From Clostridia bacterium (GTDB lineage Bacteria; Bacillota; Clostridia; Christensenellales; CAG-138), in NCBI GenBank assembly GCA_017509785.1, contig JAFWOT010000012.1, positions 505,476 through 569,475 of the forward strand: a DNA stretch of 64,000 bases. Reading direction: 5' to 3'. The notes below the pieces were generated by a model. The model did not search any database. It was not told where the DNA came from and saw only the letters and a list, made by a program, of their open reading frames with translations. The translations under genes were made by a program, and so were the position numbers. This document shows, in pieces, positions 43,803 to 64,000 of the stretch (position 1 is its first letter; each line of letters begins with the position of its first letter).

Positions 43803-46217
43803 CTGATCCTATCTGGATAATATCCTCGTGCGCGCTGATCGTCGCGGTCATTGCGATCCGCGCCGTGTTCGGCAAAAGAATGAGCGCGGGGCTGAGGTAC
43901 GCCCTTTGGGGATTGGTGCTCTTGCGGCTGCTCATACCGGGGACGGTTTTTTCAAAGCCCGGTGAGCGTTGAGACCGCGGTGAACCGGAATGAGATAGTA
44001 CGCGACATGGAGGCTCTGCGGCAGGTCAGCTCCATAACGCAAACCGAATCCGGCTCCGTTGTGGGGCGGATGAGCGGGGTGCAGTCCGGTCAGAACGAAG
44101 CCGCCGTTGGCGAGGCCGGGCAAGGTTCGAAGGTCATACTGCAGGAGGCAGCTCCGGAGCGGTTCCGCCGTATGCAGAGGACGCTCGAGGTGCGCGATCT
44201 GCTCCGCGTCGTCTATTTCGCGGGCATGGCTGTGACCGCGGCATGGTTCATCACGGCGAACCTCCGCTTCTATTTGAGGATCCGTCGCAGGCGCGAGCGC
44301 ATAAACGCGGGAACGCGCTTCCCCGTGTATCTTGCGGAAGGGATCGAATCCTCCTGTCTGTTCATAAATTCCGTATACGTATCAAAGCAGATCGCCGAAG
44401 ACGCGGAGAAGTTCCGTTACGTGCTCGCGCATGAGAGCGCGCACAGAAGGCACGGGGACGGCTTCATCGCGCTGCTGAGGGCCGCGGCGCTCGTGATCCA
44501 TTGGTACGATCCGCTCGTATGGGTCGCCGCGTTCCTTTCAAGGCGGGACAGCGAGCTCTTTGCGGACGCCGGCGCGATCGCCGAGGTCGGCGAGGAGAAC
44601 CGCGGCTCATACGGGGAAGCCCTTATAGAGCTGTCCTCGGGGAGGAGCTCCCGCGCTCCGATCGCCTGCGCCGCCACAATGATGACCGGCGGCAAAGCAG
44701 AGCTGAAAAGACGCATAAAGGGGATAGCTTCTCATCGGAAGACCGGGGCTGTTTTAGCCGCCGTTGTCCTCGCGGCAGCGCTTGCGGCGGCCGGATGCGC
44801 CTTCCTCGGCGGGAAAGCGGGTGAAACGCCCGCGTCGGATACGCCTTCGCCGACCGAGGAAACCGCCGTACAGCCGACCGAAACGAAGCTCTTTTCCGAA
44901 CTGCCCATGGATGAGATCATCGCCGTGTTCGAGCGTTACGGCGTGCCTCTGCCCTATGATCCGAGGGAAAACGAGGACCGGTTCCGGGATATCATCCGCG
45001 ATTGCGAGGAAAACGGCACGGGGCCGGTATTCGATTCCTCCGAGATCAACCTGTTTGTCAGCGACGTTGCCTACGTCACTCTCCGTTACAACGACCCCGC
45101 AAGGCATGATGAGCTGACTCCGCTTTCGCATCTCGGAAAGAAGAAGTGTATTGAAACGCTCGCCCAATACGGTATCACGATCCCCGAACCGCTTCTTTTC
45201 TCAGACATCGGCCGGCTGCAGGACATACGCATTTGTTTGGCGGAGCTTGAGAAGGACATAAACATGGAGTCCATGTTCAAGCCCGAATTCGACGAATTCT
45301 TCGAATCGCTTCGCAGGGCGGTGATGCGCTATAACGGTATGGATCCGCAGAATACGAATGGGCCCGACGATGGCATACTCGGCGGGATATCGCCCGAGGT
45401 CAGGTTCCTCGGTTCCGAAAAGACCGCCGAGATACCCGCGGGCGCGGCGCCTTACGGCGCGGAGCACGGCGCGGAAGGAAGTCTCGGATATCTGTTCGAT
45501 CCGTCCGGCAATATAGGCCCCGCCGAAATGCGCGCCGTTTCGGACGAAAGCTTCATAATACTCGATCAGGTGAATAAGGCGCTGCTCTTCGTCGGCAGGG
45601 ACGGCGTTGAGCACATCGTCAGCCTTGAAAGATGCGACCGTCCGAAGACCTTCGCCGTCAACGGCGATGAGATCGCCGTACTCGATTCGGCGAGGATAGT
45701 CATAATGAACGGATCGGGCGAAACTCTGAGGCAGATCCCCCTGCCCTTCCTTCTCTATAACGACGATTGGAATTACGGCGCTGCGGCAATGGCGTTCGAA
45801 TTCGAGGACGGTATCCTCTACTGGCAGACGTATTCCGGCAAATCGTTCGTGCTTGACGACAAGGGATTGGAGGAGACTGAGCCGAGGATAAAGTGCTACG
45901 CCTCCGGGACCAATGCGAAGATAGCCTCCGGGTTCAGGACATGGACCATAGCGGGAGGAGAAAACATCGCCGTGATCGACCCGGTCGAGAGCATCGGACG
46001 AATATACCTGATAAAGAAAAACGAGGGAATACTGCCCGACGTCACCGCCTATGCGGGAGTTTGCGACAGCGAAAGCACCAATTCGGTATTCGCCCCGATA
46101 GAAACGGAGGGCGAGATCTGCTTCCCGCTCGTCTCGATGAGCCCGTCCGGCAGAGTCTATATGCTGACCTGCCTTGAGGACAGAGCGATCATATCGGAGC
46201 TGATATTCGGAGAATGA
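43799..46217 (+). pseudogene. M56 (BlaR1-type) membrane protease, copy B, frameshifted after residue 53
   Basis: The ATG at 43799 opens 57 codons nearly identical in plan to copy A (MSAGLRYALWGLVLLRLLIPGTVFS), then stops at 43972. The remaining homology continues in the +1 frame (open from 43962 to 46217, 751 residues). Removing one base in GGTTTTTTCAAAGCCC (43945-43960) restores VFSSPVSV as in copy A. The downstream frame has further membrane segments, the zinc motif HESAHRRHGDG near 150-160 of that frame, RRDSELFADAGA, a membrane helix near 270-290 and a ~470-residue extracellular part without Asp boxes. It may be a recent pseudogene, a phase-variable gene or a sequencing error. The long intact downstream frame argues for recency. 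Confidence 0.8.
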
Positions 46218-46231
46218 CGCGGAACAAACAA

Positions 46232-46270
46232 GATCCGCCCCGGCATCCCTGCCGGGGCGGATCGTTTTTT
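46232..46270. terminator. Strong terminator between convergent genes
   Basis: GATCCGCCCCGGCA-TCCC-TGCCGGGGCGGATC, a perfect 14-bp stem, followed by G and six T on the plus strand. It separates M56-B from the redox/cohesin operon. Confidence 0.88.
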
Positions 46271-46279
46271 CAGATCGTG

Positions 46280-47449
46280 TTACCTGTCGTTCTTCCTGCG
46301 AAGAGCGATCATGCCGACGCCCGCAAGCGCGGCGGCCGCGCCGAGAACGGCAAGGCTCATGCTGCCGGTCGCGGGGGGAGCGGGAACGATGGGAGCATCG
46401 GTGGGAGCGGGCTCGTCGGTGGGCTCAACGGGAGCGGGCTCGTCGGTGGGTTCAACGGGTGCGGGCTCATCGGTGGGCTCAACGGGCTCGCCGCCGTCGG
46501 CGAACATGTCAATGGAGTCAATGTACATCACGGGCTCGGCGCCGTCAAGGAATACGCTATCGGTCATAACGTCCTTGATATCGTCATCGGTGAAGCCGAA
46601 GAAATTCATGACGTCGTTATAGCCGCGCTCGAGAGCTTCGAATTTCGTACCCTCGGTGAATACGACGGAGGGATCGTCAATACGGGTGTAGGTAACGCCC
46701 TTCGTGCCGACGGAGCGGATGTAATCGATATCGTTGAGGCAGACGTAGTAATGATCGTAGAGGTCGCCCTCGGTGAAGAACTTCATGCCGCGGATCTGAA
46801 CGGCGGTGAAATCCTTATCATAGACGTAGTAGCCGCCTTCGATCTTCTCGACCTTGCCAACGGAATAGTGGGTGGGCAGCGTGGACTGACCGATGGACTC
46901 AACGTAAACGAACTCGGACTCCTCGGAAGCGACGGTGCCGCGGACGATGATCTGCACGGTGGAGTTGAGCTTGGGCTCAACGACGAGGGAGCCGTCCTCG
47001 ATCGCCGCATTGCCGTAGCCGGGCAGAGGATAGCAGTAGCCCGCCTCGTAATCGCAGGTCTGATTGGGCTCAAGGCCGGTCGCGTCGATGATCTCGATAC
47101 CTTCGAGACCGGTGAAGCCGGCGACGATGACTATCTGATTGAGAGCCTCGGCGTCAAAGCCCTCGATGGTGGAGCCGATCTGATACTCGACGGAGTAGGT
47201 CACGGTCTCGCCAACGGCGGCTGCGGGGTCGCTGCCCATGGGTACCCAGGTGTTGTAGGTCTCGCCCCAAGGAGTCTGGGAGACTTCGGGTTCGTTATTC
47301 ACGCGGACGAGGTCCACGTCAAAGAGGGGCTCGGAAGACAACGTGGCTTCGGGTTCCGCGGGGGCTTCCGTGTAGCCGGTGAATGCGAATGCGGGTACTG
47401 CCGCCAGCAGGAGCAGAGCGGCGATGATGATCGAAACTGTCTTTTTCAT
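46280..47449 (-). CDS. Secreted protein with C-terminal wall-anchor-like signal
   Basis: A 389-residue protein. Signal peptide to about residue 22 (VPAFA). Its body (about 60-320) has beta-rich phrases such as GETVTYSVEYQIGST, reminiscent of DUF11 or isopeptide-forming domains, but I cannot assign it. A proline linker of three EPTDEPAPV repeats follows. The end is PPATG-SMSLAVLGAAAALAGVGMIAL-RRKNDR, the form of a sortase signal (motif, hydrophobic span, positive tail) with a non-standard motif. Last gene of the minus-strand run from 51.5 kb, 25 bp after the Fe-S gene, with AAAGGAG upstream. Confidence 0.82.
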   Translation of the reverse strand: MKKTVSIIIAALLLLAAVPAFAFTGYTEAPAEPEATLSSEPLFDVDLVRVNNEPEVSQTPWGETYNTWVPMGSDPAAAVGETVTYSVEYQIGSTIEGFDAEALNQIVIVAGFTGLEGIEIIDATGLEPNQTCDYEAGYCYPLPGYGNAAIEDGSLVVEPKLNSTVQIIVRGTVASEESEFVYVESIGQSTLPTHYSVGKVEKIEGGYYVYDKDFTAVQIRGMKFFTEGDLYDHYYVCLNDIDYIRSVGTKGVTYTRIDDPSVVFTEGTKFEALERGYNDVMNFFGFTDDDIKDVMTDSVFLDGAEPVMYIDSIDMFADGGEPVEPTDEPAPVEPTDEPAPVEPTDEPAPTDAPIVPAPPATGSMSLAVLGAAAALAGVGMIALRRKNDR

Positions 47450-47474
47450 GTGTTTCTCCTTTATTTTAAATAAA

Positions 47475-48623
47475 TTATTTGTTCTTCTTGGTGCGGAGGG
47501 CGACGCCTTCGGCGGTCTTTACCTTGAAGCCGGGGCGGATAGCCTTCTGCGGGCAGGTGGCGCTGCACGTCCCGCAGCGGATGCACTCGAGGCTGTTCGG
47601 AGTCTTGACGGGGTCTACGCCCATCGGGCAGGCGTTTGCGCAGGCGTGGCAGCCCTTGCAGCGGTTGCACTTGCTGTCATCGATGCCGTACCTGTAAAGC
47701 GAGATCGGATTGAAGAACGAATAGATCGCGCCGAGCGGGCAGATGTAGCGGCAGAACGGCCTGTAAAGGAACATCGAGAGCACGACTATTGAGACGAGTA
47801 TGCAGCACTTAAGCAGCGTGAGGCTGCCCGCCGCGGAGGCGAGGCTCTCGTTCATGCTCATAAGGGGTATGCCGCCGATGAGCATTCCGGAGGGACATAC
47901 GTACTTGCAGAACCACGGGTTCGCCCTGACGATGAGGGGCAGGAAAATGACCATTATGAGGAGGAAGGCGTACTTCGCGTAGCGGAGGTACTTATCCACC
48001 CCGAGGAAGAAGCGGACCCTGCCGGGGTGCTTCATGGCGTTTATGCGTTTCTCGTCCCGCGGGAGCTTCAGCTTCTTGACGGGGATCTTATAGAGCAGAT
48101 CCTGTATCCAGCCAAACGGGCACAGGAGGCCGCAGATGAACCTGCCGCACACCGCGCCGACTATCATAAGGAAGCCTATGACGTAGAAGGCGATCCAGTA
48201 TTTGGGGTACTGGACGAACGTGGAGGTCTTCGGATCGAACCAGGATTTGGAGGGATCGGAATCATCGAGCACGGCCTGAAGCGCGCCGATGGGACATGAG
48301 CCCCACGCGCCGGGGCAGGAATAGCAGTTCATGCCGGGAACGCAGATGTATTTGAGCTTGCCCTGGTAGATCGTCCCCTTCAGCCAGCCGACCATGAAGC
48401 TGTTGGTCAAAACGAACCAGGTGGTCTGGGTGATGAGCTTCGTGCGCTGCCAGGTCTTATTGCCCCAACGGGTGATCTGATAGCGCTTCTTAACGAGCAG
48501 GGTTATGAACACGGCAATGCACGCCGCAATGAGCACGAAGCTCAGTATGACGCCCGCAACTACGACGGGATCGGACAACGCGGCCTCTTCAAGGCCGAAA
48601 AGGCTGAGAATAAAATCCTTCAT
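47475..48623 (-). CDS. NapH-like membrane 4Fe-4S electron-transfer protein
   Basis: A 382-residue protein of the NapH/CcoG-like family. Membrane helices near 18-44, 130-150, 220-240 and 265-285. Cysteine motifs: CVPGMNCYSCPGAWGSCP near 95-112, CGRFICGLLCPFG near 158-170, CKYVCPSG and CRYICPLG; two C-terminal 4Fe-4S clusters, CNRCKGCHACANACP and CIRCGTCSATCP. It should carry electrons from the cytoplasm into or across the membrane. It lies with a TlpA-like thioredoxin and a CXXC peptide, an arrangement seen in other Clostridia. Confidence 0.9.
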   Translation of the reverse strand: MKDFILSLFGLEEAALSDPVVVAGVILSFVLIAACIAVFITLLVKKRYQITRWGNKTWQRTKLITQTTWFVLTNSFMVGWLKGTIYQGKLKYICVPGMNCYSCPGAWGSCPIGALQAVLDDSDPSKSWFDPKTSTFVQYPKYWIAFYVIGFLMIVGAVCGRFICGLLCPFGWIQDLLYKIPVKKLKLPRDEKRINAMKHPGRVRFFLGVDKYLRYAKYAFLLIMVIFLPLIVRANPWFCKYVCPSGMLIGGIPLMSMNESLASAAGSLTLLKCCILVSIVVLSMFLYRPFCRYICPLGAIYSFFNPISLYRYGIDDSKCNRCKGCHACANACPMGVDPVKTPNSLECIRCGTCSATCPQKAIRPGFKVKTAEGVALRTKKNK

Positions 48624-48651
48624 GGAATTGGCGCCCCCTCGCGCGGTCGAT

Positions 48652-48804
48652 TCAATGGAATTCTCCTATGCCGATGCACTCCATGCAGATGGCAACGGCC
48701 TTGCGGAGCACGGAGCCCGCTTCGCCGTCGGAAATGCCGACGATGACGAAGCCGACGCCGATGAGCAGCACGAGAGCGGGAATGAGGTATCTTTTGAGCT
48801 TCAT
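48652..48804 (-). CDS. CD1871A-type CXXC-motif membrane peptide
   Basis: A 50-residue protein. One membrane helix (about 7-24), then SDGEAGSVLRKAVAICMECIGIG with a CMEC pair, the mark of the CD1871A family. It ends GEFH. GGGGGGATACAC precedes the ATG, 14 bp after the TlpA-like gene; the Fe-S gene follows 28 bp on. A role passing electrons or thiols between the Fe-S protein and the thioredoxin is inference from gene order. Confidence 0.88.
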   Translation of the reverse strand: MKLKRYLIPALVLLIGVGFVIVGISDGEAGSVLRKAVAICMECIGIGEFH

Positions 48805-48818
48805 GTGTATCCCCCCGA

Positions 48819-49742
48819 TCAGAGCATCTTTTCTATCTCAGAGCACCACTGATCGAAATTGTGGCTGCCCTTTATGACCTTGACGAGCCTGCCCTGCTGA
48901 TCTATGAAGAAGGTCGTCGGCAGGGACGGCGGCGTGAGATAGGGGTTGTCGAACGCAGCCTTTATGGAATCGTTCCTCCTCAGCACGGGGAGGGTGAACC
49001 CCATGGCGTTCATCTGGCCTATCGCAAGCTGTACCGCGCCGGAATCGCCGGAATCATAGAGTATGGTGAGTATCTGGAGCTTGGAGGAATACTTGTTCTG
49101 AAGCTGACCGAAGAAGGGAAGCTCCTCAAGGCAGGGGCCGCACCAAGTCGCCCAGACGTTGAGCATCGTGAGCTTTTTCTTGGAGAATATGCTCTCGGTG
49201 TATTCCTTGTTGCTGACGATATCGTAGGTCTTGAAAACGAAATCGGGCTTGGGCGCGGCGGTGGGCTTGGGCGTGGCCGTCGGCTTGGGCGTATTCGTCG
49301 GCTTCGGCGTGGGAGTGGCCGTCGGCTTCGGAGTGTTCGTGGGCTTCGGCGTCTTCGTGGGAGCCGCCGTTTCGCCGGGCTTCGGCGTATTGGTGGGCTT
49401 CGGCGTATTCGTCGGCTTCGGCGTGTTCGTCGGAGCCGCTGTAACGGCCTCTGTCCCGCCGGGCTCGGGAGTATCCGTCGCCGCGGGGGTCTCCGTCACG
49501 GCGGGAGCTTCCGTCGGCGCTTCGGTATCATCCGCCGGTCCATCCGTCACGATGGGCTCATCCGTTTCGGCGGGCTCTTCGGAGATCATCCCGTCGTCGG
49601 GCTCGGTCTCCGTCGCGAGCGCTTCCTGCGGCTCCGTCGGGTTCGGGTTCTTCGCTATACGCAGCGGATAGCAGGCCGCGAGCGAAACGAGTGTGAGCGC
49701 CGCGAGAACGAGAGCGGCGAGCCTTTTAAGCGTAAGCTTCAT
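48819..49742 (-). CDS. TlpA-like thioredoxin lipoprotein with long Thr-Pro-Lys linker
   Basis: A 307-residue lipoprotein with lipobox LAAC, then an acidic region and a linker of TNTPKP-type repeats (about 100-165). The C-terminal domain is thioredoxin-like: LNVWATWCGPCLEELPFF (active site near 199-203), ILTILYDSGDSG, and LPTTFFIDQQGRLVKVIKGS with the cis-Pro. It should reduce disulfides outside the membrane. AGGAGG precedes the ATG. Between the dockerin-thioredoxin gene (15 bp upstream) and the CXXC peptide gene. Confidence 0.93.
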   Translation of the reverse strand: MKLTLKRLAALVLAALTLVSLAACYPLRIAKNPNPTEPQEALATETEPDDGMISEEPAETDEPIVTDGPADDTEAPTEAPAVTETPAATDTPEPGGTEAVTAAPTNTPKPTNTPKPTNTPKPGETAAPTKTPKPTNTPKPTATPTPKPTNTPKPTATPKPTAAPKPDFVFKTYDIVSNKEYTESIFSKKKLTMLNVWATWCGPCLEELPFFGQLQNKYSSKLQILTILYDSGDSGAVQLAIGQMNAMGFTLPVLRRNDSIKAAFDNPYLTPPSLPTTFFIDQQGRLVKVIKGSHNFDQWCSEIEKML

Positions 49743-49757
49743 AAACTCCTCCTAAAA

Positions 49758-50447
49758 TTATAAGGACAATGCCTGCCTTATGACCATGAGCGCGTCGTAG
49801 CCGGTGAGCCTGCCGTCGCCGTCAACGTCCCCTCGGGCGATCTGCTCGGGAGAAAGGGCGTTGAGCCCCATGACGTGGCGCATTATCATCAGCGCGTCGA
49901 CGCTGTTGATGACGCCGTTCATATCGACGTCGCCGTCTGCGAGGCCGGACCAGTAAGCCAGCCTTTCGAGCAATGTATCGGCGCTTGTGAAAGCCGCCTG
50001 CCAGACCTCGACCACGAGGCCGTATCTGTCAACGATGAAGCACTGCGGAATGTACATCGACTCCCCGACGAGATCGCCCCAGACTTCGTCGCAGACGAAA
50101 ACGGGGAATTCGTATCCATGTTCCTCCACGAAAGCGAGGGCGGCTTCGGGCGTGCTGGTCGCGTCCGTATGGAGCAGACCCATCACGCCGTATTCGGGGT
50201 GCGCGGCGGAGACCTCCCGCAGCAGCTCAAGCTGTGCGCAGCTCTCCGCGCTCCAGGTCGCCCAGCAGACGACCGCGCTTGCGGCATAGTTGCCGAATAT
50301 CCTTCCGTCGATGAGCTCACCGTCTATGCACACGGAAGAGAACCCAACGACCGACGTCCCCGCCTGATCCCTTTCGGGGGAGGCTGCGGCGCTTATCGGG
50401 AACGCGATCAGTATCGAAAGAAGTATCGCGGCAAATCGTCTGATCAT
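49758..50447 (-). CDS. Secreted thioredoxin-fold protein with C-terminal dockerin, active-site cysteines replaced
   Basis: A 229-residue protein. Signal peptide to about residue 23 (ISAAAS). The thioredoxin-like domain has VVCWATWSAESCAQL at about 60-74; compared with the neighbour's WATWCGPCLEEL both active cysteines are Ser, with one Cys displaced by one place. PQCFIVDRYGLVVEVW holds the cis-Pro strand. Residues about 172-229 form a dockerin with two calcium-loop repeats: GDVDMNGVINSVDALMIMR and GDVDGDGRLTGYDALMVIR. The probable partner is the cohesin protein encoded upstream. A start at 50447 fits the signal peptide and an ATGA overlap with the small upstream gene. Confidence 0.9.
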   Translation of the reverse strand: MIRRFAAILLSILIAFPISAAASPERDQAGTSVVGFSSVCIDGELIDGRIFGNYAASAVVCWATWSAESCAQLELLREVSAAHPEYGVMGLLHTDATSTPEAALAFVEEHGYEFPVFVCDEVWGDLVGESMYIPQCFIVDRYGLVVEVWQAAFTSADTLLERLAYWSGLADGDVDMNGVINSVDALMIMRHVMGLNALSPEQIARGDVDGDGRLTGYDALMVIRQALSL

Positions 50448-50542
50448 TTCTTTCTGAATCTTATGAGCAGCACGACAAGCGTTACGAGCGCAGCCGCACC
50501 GAGTACGCACGCCGCGATTATTATCAGTCTCGCTGCGCTCAT
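50444..50542 (-). CDS. 32-residue single-span membrane peptide
   Basis: The frame encodes 32 residues: about 25 hydrophobic (LIIIAACVLGAAALVTLVVLL) and a basic end (IRFRKK). GAGAGGAAG precedes the ATG. The ATG overlaps the stop of the cohesin gene by 1 nt (TGATG) and its stop overlaps the dockerin-thioredoxin start (ATGA), so it lies tightly coupled between two coding genes. The span resembles the C-terminal anchor of the cohesin protein. Function unknown. Confidence 0.75.
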   Translation of the reverse strand: MSAARLIIIAACVLGAAALVTLVVLLIRFRKK

Positions 50543-51471
50543 CAGTGCTTCCTCTCATTGGAGTTTCGCTTTATGAGCAGAGCGATGAGCGCGATCACAG
50601 CCGCCGCAAACACGCCGCCGCCGATATAGAGCGCGGTATGCAGGCCGGAATTATCCCTTGAGGCGGGAACTTCGCTCTCATTCGCGGAAGCCTGCTCGGA
50701 TGCGTCCACCGGGAGCTCGGAAAGGACGGCCTCGGAGAAAGCGGGATCCTCCGACTGAGTCTGATCCGGAGGGGTGGTGCCGAACGCGGAAGCGGGATCG
50801 GGAGTCATCTTGGGATCCTGAGATATGAGCGTGGGCTCCGTCCTCGAAGCCCTGCCCTCGGTATTGGAGGGCTGAACGGGGTTCGGCGTGGAGCTCGTGG
50901 GAGCCTTGGTGCCCTCGGGCCTCGGGGTGTTGACGGGGATCTCCGTAGTGCCCGTGCCGGTGCCGCCGGTGATGCTCACCTTAAGGCCGGAGGACGAGCA
51001 GTTGAGGTTGTATGCGATCGTCTGGCCGATGGGCATGGAGGCGAACTCCTCCACCTGCACGGCGAATTCGGTGCTGCTCGATGCGGTGCCGATGACCTGG
51101 AACTTCGCACGGACGAGCTCGCCCGGGACGGTCATCGCGGTGGTGGGCATCATTATGCCGAGACTTATCGCGTTGGCGTCCTGATTTATGTCGCAGAGGG
51201 CGAACCCGCCGACGCTCTGCGCCGCGGTGAAGGCTTCGCCCATCGTCTTATCGACGAAGCGGAACGAGGTGTTATCGAAGAAAACGCGGATGTTGAGCGT
51301 GTTGACGCTGAATTCGCCTTCGAGCTTGACGGAGATCTCGATCGTATCGCCGACCTTTGCCGTGGTCGGCCCCTCGATATAGAATCTCCCGTATTGATCC
51401 GCGAACGCGGGGACGGCAAATACGCCCATGAGCAGCAGCGCTGCGGCTATAACCGAAATTATCCTTCTCAT
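50542..51471 (-). CDS. Membrane-anchored cohesin-domain protein
   Basis: A 309-residue protein. Signal peptide to about residue 25 (VPAFA). A cohesin-type domain at about 28-165: GRFYIEGPTTAKVGDTIEISVKL-like first strands, then NTLNIRVFFDNTSFRFVD, LGIMMPTTAM and ELVRAKFQVIG. A Pro/Thr/Ser linker to about 270 follows, then a membrane helix (ALYIGGGVFAAAVIALIALLI) and a basic tail (KRNSNERKH). It would display a single cohesin on the cell surface to hold dockerin proteins. First gene of the operon. A frame to 51591 lies over the promoter. Confidence 0.9.
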   Translation of the reverse strand: MRRIISVIAAALLLMGVFAVPAFADQYGRFYIEGPTTAKVGDTIEISVKLEGEFSVNTLNIRVFFDNTSFRFVDKTMGEAFTAAQSVGGFALCDINQDANAISLGIMMPTTAMTVPGELVRAKFQVIGTASSSTEFAVQVEEFASMPIGQTIAYNLNCSSSGLKVSITGGTGTGTTEIPVNTPRPEGTKAPTSSTPNPVQPSNTEGRASRTEPTLISQDPKMTPDPASAFGTTPPDQTQSEDPAFSEAVLSELPVDASEQASANESEVPASRDNSGLHTALYIGGGVFAAAVIALIALLIKRNSNERKH

Positions 51472-51581
51472 TATCACACATACGCCCGAGCGGATCGGGC
51501 GCCCTTTCCCGGCATGGAGCCGAATTGATATTCCTGCGGAGAAAAACAACGGGTTTTCACTCCGAATAACTCTCCGTATAC

Positions 51582-51610
51582 ATTTTATCACACAGAAACG
51601 GAATATGCAA
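51582..51610 (-). promoter_or_regulatory. Promoter of the cohesin/redox operon
   Basis: TTGCAT, 17-bp spacer, TAAAAT on the minus strand, with a leader of about 100 nt. I found no other clear promoter or strong terminator until the stop of the gene at 46280. The 309-bp gap at 51472-51780 also holds the divergent promoter below. Confidence 0.65.
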
Positions 51611-62629: not shown

Positions 62630-64000
62630 TTACATGAGACCGAATATGGCGGAGAGGTCGGACGAATCGAGCGAACCGTTGCCGCTCGCATCGGCGTTCA
62701 CAATACCCTGCTCGGAGAGCTGACCCTTGCCGAGGAGGTAGGCGGACAGAGCGGAGATATCGCCCATGTCGACCTTGCCGTCGCAGTTGACGTCGCCGAG
62801 GAGGGAGACTTCGATCTGGTTCTCGGTGTAGGTCGCGGTGACGATGAGGTCACTCGTCACGTTGTTGAACGCGACGTCCCAACCGGCGAAGGTGTAGCCC
62901 TCGCGGGTGGGATCCGCGGGCGCGGTCGCCGCGGAGCCGTGCTCAACGGTCTGGGTCGAAAGGACAGTGCCGTCCCAATCCTTGAATGTGACGGTGTAGG
63001 TGTTGATGGCGTACTGCGCGGTTACCACGAGATCGGAAGTAACGTTGTTGAAGGCGACGTCCCAGCCGGTGAAGGTGTAGCCCTCGCGGGTGGGATCGGC
63101 GGGCGCGATGGCGGCCGTGCCTTCCTCAACGGTCTGGGTAGCGAGAACGGCGCCGTCCCAATCCTTGAAGGTCACAGTGTAGTAGGTGGGCTCGACCGCG
63201 GGAGCAGTCATCGAGTAGAGCTGAACGTAGCTGTTGGTGGGAACGTTCGAGGTGACTCCCATCAGGTTGAGGCTGCCGTTGGTGTAGTACTGGGCATACC
63301 TGGTGGTGGAAGTGTAGGTGTAGAGGGTATGCGCGTCGGCGTCATAAGTCCAGGTGAAGTTATTGTTGGTGCCGGGATACAGGTCGGGATAGCTGGTTCC
63401 GCTGTAGGCCTGGAGATAGTAGCCGGACTGATAGCCGCTCGTGATGAGGCCGGTGCCTTCGGACTGGAACACCCATGTGCAGTAATCGAGGTCGTCCGCG
63501 TTGCCGGAGACGCCGATGACGTTCTGACCGTTCATCGTGGCGGGAGCGGTGTAGCCGTAGTAGTTGTAGCTGATGCTGTTGTAATAGTGGTTGCTCGCGG
63601 AGACGTTGTAGTTGACCGCAAGGTAGGTGACGCCGTCAACGACGAAGCCGATGAGGTACTCCTCGCCGGGAACGATCGTGTCGGCGGGATACCACTGGGG
63701 AGCTTCGGTGACGTTGATGGTGATGCTCTTCGTCATGACGGTCTTGCTCTCGTCGGTGACGGTGGCGGTCAGCGTGGTAGCGCCGGGAGCGACGCCGGTG
63801 ACGGTCGCGGACTTGCCGTTCGCGGCGGGAGTCACCGTCGCGACGGAGGAGTCGGCAACGGACCACTCAACGGTGTAGGTATTGGCGTTGGAGGGGTTGG
63901 CAACGATCTTGACGCCCGTGCTCTTGCCCTGCGCGACGGTCGCGGAGGTGATCACGGTGCCGGCGTTGTTGGCGATATCGAAGGATTCGAGCGCGATGGG
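62630..64000 (-). CDS. Surface protein with Big_2, two InlB-type repeats and dockerin (C-terminal part)
   Basis: 456 residues are visible; the N-terminus lies beyond the right edge. From the edge inwards: a Big_2 Ig-like domain (GKSTGVKIVANP... SVATVTP...ATGV-type, first ~85 residues), a Tyr/Asn-rich beta domain (to about 255), two InlB B-repeats (YTVTFKDWDG... GYTFTGWDVAFNNV, near 260-390), and a C-terminal dockerin with two calcium loops (GDVNCDGKVDMGDISALSAYL and ADASGNGSLDSSDLSAI). The dockerin could bind the cohesin at 50542-51471. It is secreted by analogy; the signal peptide is outside. Confidence 0.9.
   Translation of the reverse strand, partial: PIALESFDIANNAGTVITSATVAQGKSTGVKIVANPSNANTYTVEWSVADSSVATVTPAANGKSATVTGVAPGATTLTATVTDESKTVMTKSITINVTEAPQWYPADTIVPGEEYLIGFVVDGVTYLAVNYNVSASNHYYNSISYNYYGYTAPATMNGQNVIGVSGNADDLDYCTWVFQSEGTGLITSGYQSGYYLQAYSGTSYPDLYPGTNNNFTWTYDADAHTLYTYTSTTRYAQYYTNGSLNLMGVTSNVPTNSYVQLYSMTAPAVEPTYYTVTFKDWDGAVLATQTVEEGTAAIAPADPTREGYTFTGWDVAFNNVTSDLVVTAQYAINTYTVTFKDWDGTVLSTQTVEHGSAATAPADPTREGYTFAGWDVAFNNVTSDLIVTATYTENQIEVSLLGDVNCDGKVDMGDISALSAYLLGKGQLSEQGIVNADASGNGSLDSSDLSAIFGLM

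Follow-up and report, generated by a model that had tools for sequence, protein, structure and literature searches.

Cohesin-dockerin plugs are chiefly known as the assembly principle of cellulosomes. Dockerins are also reported to be carried by proteases and leucine-rich repeat (LRR) proteins in the gut bacterium Ruminococcus flavefaciens (PMC2930009, PMC5301203). Non-cellulolytic bacteria that contain scaffoldins have been described as well, e.g., Lachnoclostridium sp. MSJ-17 (PMC11557425), and the genomes of anaerobic methanotrophic (ANME) archaea encode many dockerins (PMC9012536). Streptococcal surface thioredoxins have been reported to be fed by CcdA, as in the Etrx1/Etrx2-CcdA-MsrAB2 system of Streptococcus pneumoniae and the SdbA/CcdA system of Streptococcus gordonii (PMC3914529, PMC7034828). 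Here, we analyzed a stretch of 64,000 nucleotides (nt), referred to as the window, from a rumen-type Clostridia bacterium (Christensenellales, CAG-138; contig JAFWOT010000012.1). It contains a minus-strand row of seven open reading frames (ORFs), which encode a cohesin protein (COH), a 32-amino-acid (aa) peptide (PEP32), a thioredoxin-fold protein with a dockerin (TRXDOC), a TlpA-like thioredoxin (TLPA), a CXXC peptide (CXXC), a NapH-like 4Fe-4S protein (NAPH) and a secreted protein with a sorting signal (LPX). The best explanation of this row, to which we assign a probability of roughly 0.45, is that a non-cellulosomal, protein-degrading cohesin-dockerin system has been combined with a clostridial thiol relay and that a pseudo-thioredoxin is docked at the membrane cohesin.

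COH consists of a signal peptide, a cohesin domain (residues ~28-165), a Pro/Thr-rich linker and a C-terminal transmembrane (TM) helix with a basic tail, and its sequence contains no LPXTG. The cohesin family PF00963 matched COH with 27.6 bits (E 3.8e-6), above the gathering cut-off of 24.1 bits, and matched 15 of 15 COH orthologues (best E 3.1e-13), which bears out the anchored cohesin proposed in a first-pass annotation of this DNA. Orthologues of COH with strong matches were found in only 4 genera, all from one family, in a search that covered first 101 genomes and then 396 genomes of the order. For TRXDOC, an AlphaFold model (predicted local distance difference test score, pLDDT, 86) predicts a ResA-type thioredoxin fold, with ResA, SdbA and Etrx2 as the best Foldseek matches (E ~1e-9; ResA 4nmu, E 1.9e-9). 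The C-terminal domain matches Dockerin_1 (PF00404; E 3.6e-13, 49.9 bits) and has two F-hand calcium loops, starting at D173 and D207, each closing with D at position 12, and the recognition residues of a type I dockerin, with Arg at position 18 of both (R190, R224). While model and profile thus agree with the thioredoxin-dockerin named in the first-pass annotation, the CXXC motif expected of it has been lost: in place of WCxxC, TRXDOC carries WSAESC (residues 65-70; S66-A-E-S69, C70). Cis-Pro134 and a conserved DATST (~94-98) are retained.

In an alignment of 25 relatives, the first cysteine of the CXXC motif (Cys1) was missing from 18 of 18 cohesin-adjacent copies, and CGPC was found in 7 of 7 others. 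Two further genomes, held out and examined afterwards, carry WSAEC and WSPDC, bringing the absence of Cys1 to 20 of 20. The cis-Pro is present in the cohesin-adjacent copies, which also have in common a GLLxxDATST stretch missing from active relatives; going by the usual topology of this fold, the stretch would form a loop at the edge of the active site. For three closely related pairs, the ratio of nonsynonymous to synonymous substitution rates (dN/dS) was 0.16-0.30, which shows that TRXDOC is constrained by purifying selection. The dead copies of genus g10 and those of g1/g12 fall on opposite sides of the tree, and an active copy from the genome G023 that is anchored in the membrane branches at the base of the g1/g12 side. 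Read most parsimoniously, this tree indicates that Cys1 was probably lost in at least two events, the alternative being one loss and one regain; the node at which the dead groups join is modestly supported (84/69). One locus (L194) carries an additional dead thioredoxin-dockerin copy. The active G023 copy (L098:8631-9392) is a WCGPC thioredoxin with a TM anchor replacing the dockerin, encoded between the cohesin and the dead thioredoxin-dockerin, an apparent division of labour after duplication. Because Cys1 is absent in all 20 cases, TRXDOC should not, judging from its sequence, perform dithiol-disulfide exchange, and the surface redox complex with a cohesin-held thioredoxin put forward in the first-pass annotation is wrong in the catalytic sense. 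A catalytic cysteine that was probably lost more than once, under selection and precisely in the copy paired with the cohesin, makes TRXDOC a well-defined example of a pseudo-thioredoxin in bacteria that lends itself to testing.

The gene neighbourhood proved to be conserved in relatives. The full order COH-TRXDOC-TLPA-CXXC-NAPH-LPX was found in nine genomes of the genus (the one studied here and eight others) and in G023, which belongs to another genus, at protein identities of 30-50%. The row lacks TLPA and LPX in G001, is reduced to COH-TRXDOC in G003 and G012, and is interrupted by a contig end in G005. Genomes of genus g10 (G021, G042 and G054; also G060, G391 and G416) keep the COH-TRXDOC pair, which in G021, G042 and G054 adjoins pth, mfd and glmM, an unrelated chromosomal site. 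G016 (genus g5) carries a cohesin without an adjacent thioredoxin-dockerin. The COH-TRXDOC pair forms an independent unit that occurs in at least two contexts, and pair and relay are separable, because G003 and G012 have no relay and the g10 genomes keep both at separate loci. With its order conserved in relatives, the row is more than a chance arrangement. It is rather unlikely that an ordinary cohesin anchor and an ordinary dockerin protein simply came to lie upstream of a housekeeping relay, with common transcription and no common function. While the relay often occurs in Clostridia with no cohesin or dockerin nearby (69 of 80 relay loci), pair and relay are not together in the genomes just named, and COH has the same cohesin type as the genome's wall scaffoldin, a chance neighbourhood would not readily account for an order kept across the genus and into a second one at such divergence, for a g10 relay operon that independently bears other thioredoxin-dockerins, or for the fact that LPX tracks the presence of dockerins in relay operons. 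In the set of 80 loci, 10 of 10 LPX-bearing relay loci carry a dockerin and 0 of the 69 dockerin-free relay loci have LPX.

The genome yielded 54 dockerin matches, 30 of which were scanned for domains. Two sequence classes were found among its dockerin loci (L106-L111, L167-L186). The class of the TRXDOC dockerin ('DALLILRxAMGL', here class A) is found on five subtilases, LRR proteins, thioredoxins, a gingipain-adhesin-like protein and Big_2 proteins. The second class ('DISALSAYLLG') is found on lipase, cleaved-adhesin, MucBP and RCC1 proteins, on an endonuclease plus cohesin protein and on others, and the two classes suggest two putative cohesin specificities. One class-two protein (C8:678428-681757, L111) combines Endonuclease I, LRR, cohesin and Flg_new repeats with its dockerin, and the C-terminal portion of another dockerin protein of the second class lies at the window edge (62630-64000, minus strand). 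No glycoside hydrolase domain was found among the 30 dockerin proteins scanned, and proteolysis was the commonest enzymatic theme; by content, the system is not a cellulosome. Since the TRXDOC dockerin shares its class with >25 other dockerins of the genome, exclusive pairing of COH and TRXDOC is not indicated. COH could instead anchor the class-A dockerin proteome at large (subtilases, LRR proteins, thioredoxins), with TRXDOC as a low-affinity stand-in, or cap, that stabilizes the fold of the cohesin or fills its binding site before secreted proteins arrive. This seems improbable, as such a cap would need neither the conserved thioredoxin groove nor the DATST loop, even if a typical class-A dockerin, the missing catalytic residue and the strict pairing with a cohesin gene are what a cap would be expected to show. 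TRXDOC might also have stayed redox-active by means of a different cysteine (for example the kept Cys2, or C70, C118 or C136 in the window copy), working as a monothiol or carrying a disulfide that TLPA acts on. This is improbable, because a lone buried Cys2 is not the nucleophile in the established thioredoxin mechanism, no cysteine is conserved family-wide and G010, G004 and G011 have none in the motif, although many copies keep Cys2 (SxxC) and most relay-linked g1 copies keep the cysteine of FxCDxxW.

The components of the relay are largely as described in the first-pass annotation, which had also noted the clustering of these genes; the same three genes are widespread in Clostridia in the same order. 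TLPA matches Redoxin (E 7e-11) as well as ResA, TlpA and StoA models, and both WCGPC and an LAAC lipobox, consistent with an active CXXC site and secretion as a lipoprotein, can be read in its sequence. The CXXC peptide matches CD1871A (NF040920) with 52.5 bits (E 3.2e-14; curated cut-off 32). NAPH matches Fer4_5 (E 2.5e-16) and carries Fe4S4 motifs, but scores 45 bits against the NapH/MauN model TIGR02163 (cut-off 213) and is NapH-like only. Its cysteines C94, C100, C103, C110, C164, C168, C239, C243, C291 and C295 are invariant in the alignment. The NAPH copy of G009 (L093:5397-6542) has one Cys of the first 4Fe-4S motif changed to Ala (CNRAKGC), unlike other nearby copies. An MsrA motif was present in only 1 of the 80 relay loci, and methionine sulfoxide reductase is rejected as a relay partner on this basis.

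LPX fits its description as a wall-anchor-signal protein: the C-terminal tail resembles a sorting signal and is similar to the tail of the genome's 923-aa multi-cohesin scaffoldin, and the genome encodes three sortases. No Pfam family was found for LPX by profile search. Its AlphaFold model (pLDDT ~90 over residues 30-310) is an Ig-like beta-sandwich with pilin/adhesin domains as the best VIA-align matches (middling Z of 9.4). A check for a hidden cohesin likewise gave generic Ig-like pilin/adhesin domains as structural matches, and the matches of a cohesin profile of our own inside LPX are regarded as an artefact that probably stems from the Pro/Thr linker and anchor included in that profile. 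The C132-x6-C139 pair, which is invariant in 10 orthologues and lies across a hairpin in the model, could be a redox target.

Electron supply by NAPH had been argued from the absence of a CcdA/DsbD gene. No such gene lies in the window, but the genome does carry a CcdA/DsbD_TM gene (C27:37772-38395; L167:7725-8851) followed by a small CSHC thioredoxin; the argument fails at the genome level, and it does not follow that NAPH must supply the electrons. CcdA is present in 13 of 13 genomes of the genus, and in other genomes NapH was found in 4 of 12 CcdA-positive and 15 of 36 CcdA-negative ones, with no complementary pattern; replacement of a missing CcdA by NapH is rejected on these grounds. Even so, TLPA may receive electrons from the NapH-type relay. 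Dockerin and Big_2 genes are located ~3 kb downstream of the CcdA locus.

Besides TRXDOC, the genome encodes four other thioredoxin-dockerins, all with CGPC. One (contig C11) lies ~63 nt after a dockerin-bearing subtilase and another (C13:233656) directly follows a remnant that retains half a dockerin and an Fn3 domain of the subtilase type. One to three thioredoxin-dockerins, most of them active, come first in the relay operon of L192, L193, L194, G054 and G060. Genes that read as 2-oxoacid:ferredoxin oxidoreductase-like are found directly upstream of the relay operon in two of these loci (L193:60-2646, L194:2-1897) and represent a possible low-potential electron source.

In the explanation favoured here, the first module would be membrane-anchored COH displaying the dockerin-bearing pseudo-thioredoxin, a binding suggested by gene adjacency and dockerin class. 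With its substrate groove (cis-Pro) kept, its catalytic cysteine lost and a new conserved loop gained, TRXDOC would most likely bind rather than catalyse, keeping a substrate or another protein of the system in place at the surface of the membrane. The second module would be the generic clostridial extracytoplasmic relay, from the NapH-like Fe-S protein through the CD1871A-type CXXC peptide to TLPA, plus LPX. COH would accept the dockerin class found on the subtilases and on the four catalytically intact thioredoxins, and active thioredoxin-dockerins and proteases could dock either on COH or on the wall scaffoldin. Such a membrane station would hold secreted disulfide reductases and proteases beside an electron supply, and disulfide-bonded food proteins would be reduced and then digested. 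The sequences show what the genes are, their conserved order, the loss of Cys1, purifying selection and the make-up of the dockerin classes, whereas binding of the dockerin by the cohesin, the direction of electron flow, the role of the pseudo-thioredoxin and the proteolytic purpose are what we infer. Several points weigh against this explanation: the TRXDOC dockerin has no private signature and may bind the wall scaffoldin rather than COH (P0001), so that COH-TRXDOC binding is putative; G003 and G012, which keep the pair without the relay, show that the two are not obligate partners; CcdA with the small CSHC thioredoxin provides an alternative electron path; the picture of dockerin content comes from 30 of the 54 matches; and the role of the pseudo-thioredoxin is guessed from the loss of a residue. 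It is a tentative and on the whole doubtful proposal that the whole forms a redox-coupled non-cellulosomal scaffold, i.e., a reductive proteolysis machine in which a membrane cohesin by an Fe-S/thiol relay gathers subtilases, disulfide reductases and a pseudo-thioredoxin that binds, rather than reduces, disulfide-bonded protein. If true, the cohesin-dockerin principle would reach further than cellulosomes and include the chemistry of disulfides and the digestion of proteins in the gut.

The seven ORFs are closely packed at 46280-51471 of the window, confirming the tight minus-strand row; gaps along TRXDOC-TLPA-CXXC-NAPH-LPX are 15, 14, 28 and 25 nt. Transcription from one promoter, as had been proposed, is not supported. 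Upstream of the row there are only weak -35/-10 matches (51712-51684 and 51637-51610, each 9/12), and a better match, TGGTCA-18-TATAAT (10/12; 49786-49757, minus strand), is internal: it covers the last bases of TRXDOC and lies 15 nt upstream of the start codon of TLPA. The ORF annotated as a 32-aa membrane peptide is present and hydrophobic, but PEP32 has no homologue at the corresponding place in relatives, which rules it out as a conserved component, and no family match was obtained by profile search; it may not be a gene.

Features of the row and its downstream boundary (window coordinates)
Feature	Position	Strand	Description
COH	50542..51471	-	secreted single-cohesin protein, 309 aa
PEP32	50444..50542	-	hydrophobic 32-aa ORF overlapping both neighbours; doubtful gene
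TRXDOC	49758..50447	-	predicted ResA/TlpA-fold domain without CXXC, then type I dockerin (172-227)
TLPA	48819..49742	-	lipoprotein with long Pro/Thr linker and active-type thioredoxin domain (WCGPC)
CXXC	48652..48804	-	CD1871A-family membrane peptide; CMEC close to C terminus
NAPH	47475..48623	-	NapH-like polytopic membrane protein, two 4Fe-4S motifs
LPX	46280..47449	-	secreted Ig-like beta-sandwich protein, C-terminal PATG-type sorting signal
Terminator-like hairpin, bidirectional	46232..46263		between LPX and convergent gene 43962-46217; ends the row

Redox-dead members of the protein disulfide isomerase family, TMX2 and PDILT, provide a lead for TRXDOC, as they have kept the fold, have lost a catalytic cysteine and have been proposed to bind; unlike TRXDOC, they are eukaryotic endoplasmic reticulum proteins without a dockerin. 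Single-cohesin anchors of cellulosomes and of the MSJ-17 type (PMC11557425) resemble COH in having one cohesin and a C-terminal TM anchor, alongside many dockerin proteins and few or no cellulases, but COH is gene-paired with a thioredoxin-fold dockerin protein, which is followed by a thiol relay. R. flavefaciens, like the genome studied here, has dockerins on proteases and LRR proteins; there, these proteins are part of a large cellulosome, and the passages covered mention no natural thioredoxin-dockerin (PMC2930009, PMC5301203). Etrx and SdbA (4hqz, 5um7), whose structures Foldseek ranked near the top for TRXDOC, share an extracytoplasmic ResA fold and a membrane electron donor (PMC3914529, PMC7034828). 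By comparison, the operon described here has a NapH/CD1871A relay, with CcdA elsewhere in the genome and no MsrAB nearby, so that the linkage of both to surface thioredoxins is not found; in addition, attachment is by a dockerin and the paired thioredoxin appears catalytically dead. With the clostridial TlpA-CD1871A-NapH set, the row shares the three genes and their order, and extends them by a cohesin, a pseudo-thioredoxin-dockerin and LPX. The titles, abstracts and passages searched, with subscription papers outside the scope, describe neither a thiol relay linked with a cohesin and its dockerin nor a pseudo-thioredoxin-dockerin, in line with the first-pass annotation, which knew of no such pairing. 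Compared with this literature, protease dockerins, non-cellulolytic scaffoldins and surface thioredoxins are already known, and the combination of a cohesin-dockerin pair with a thiol relay and the pseudo-thioredoxin-dockerin are new.

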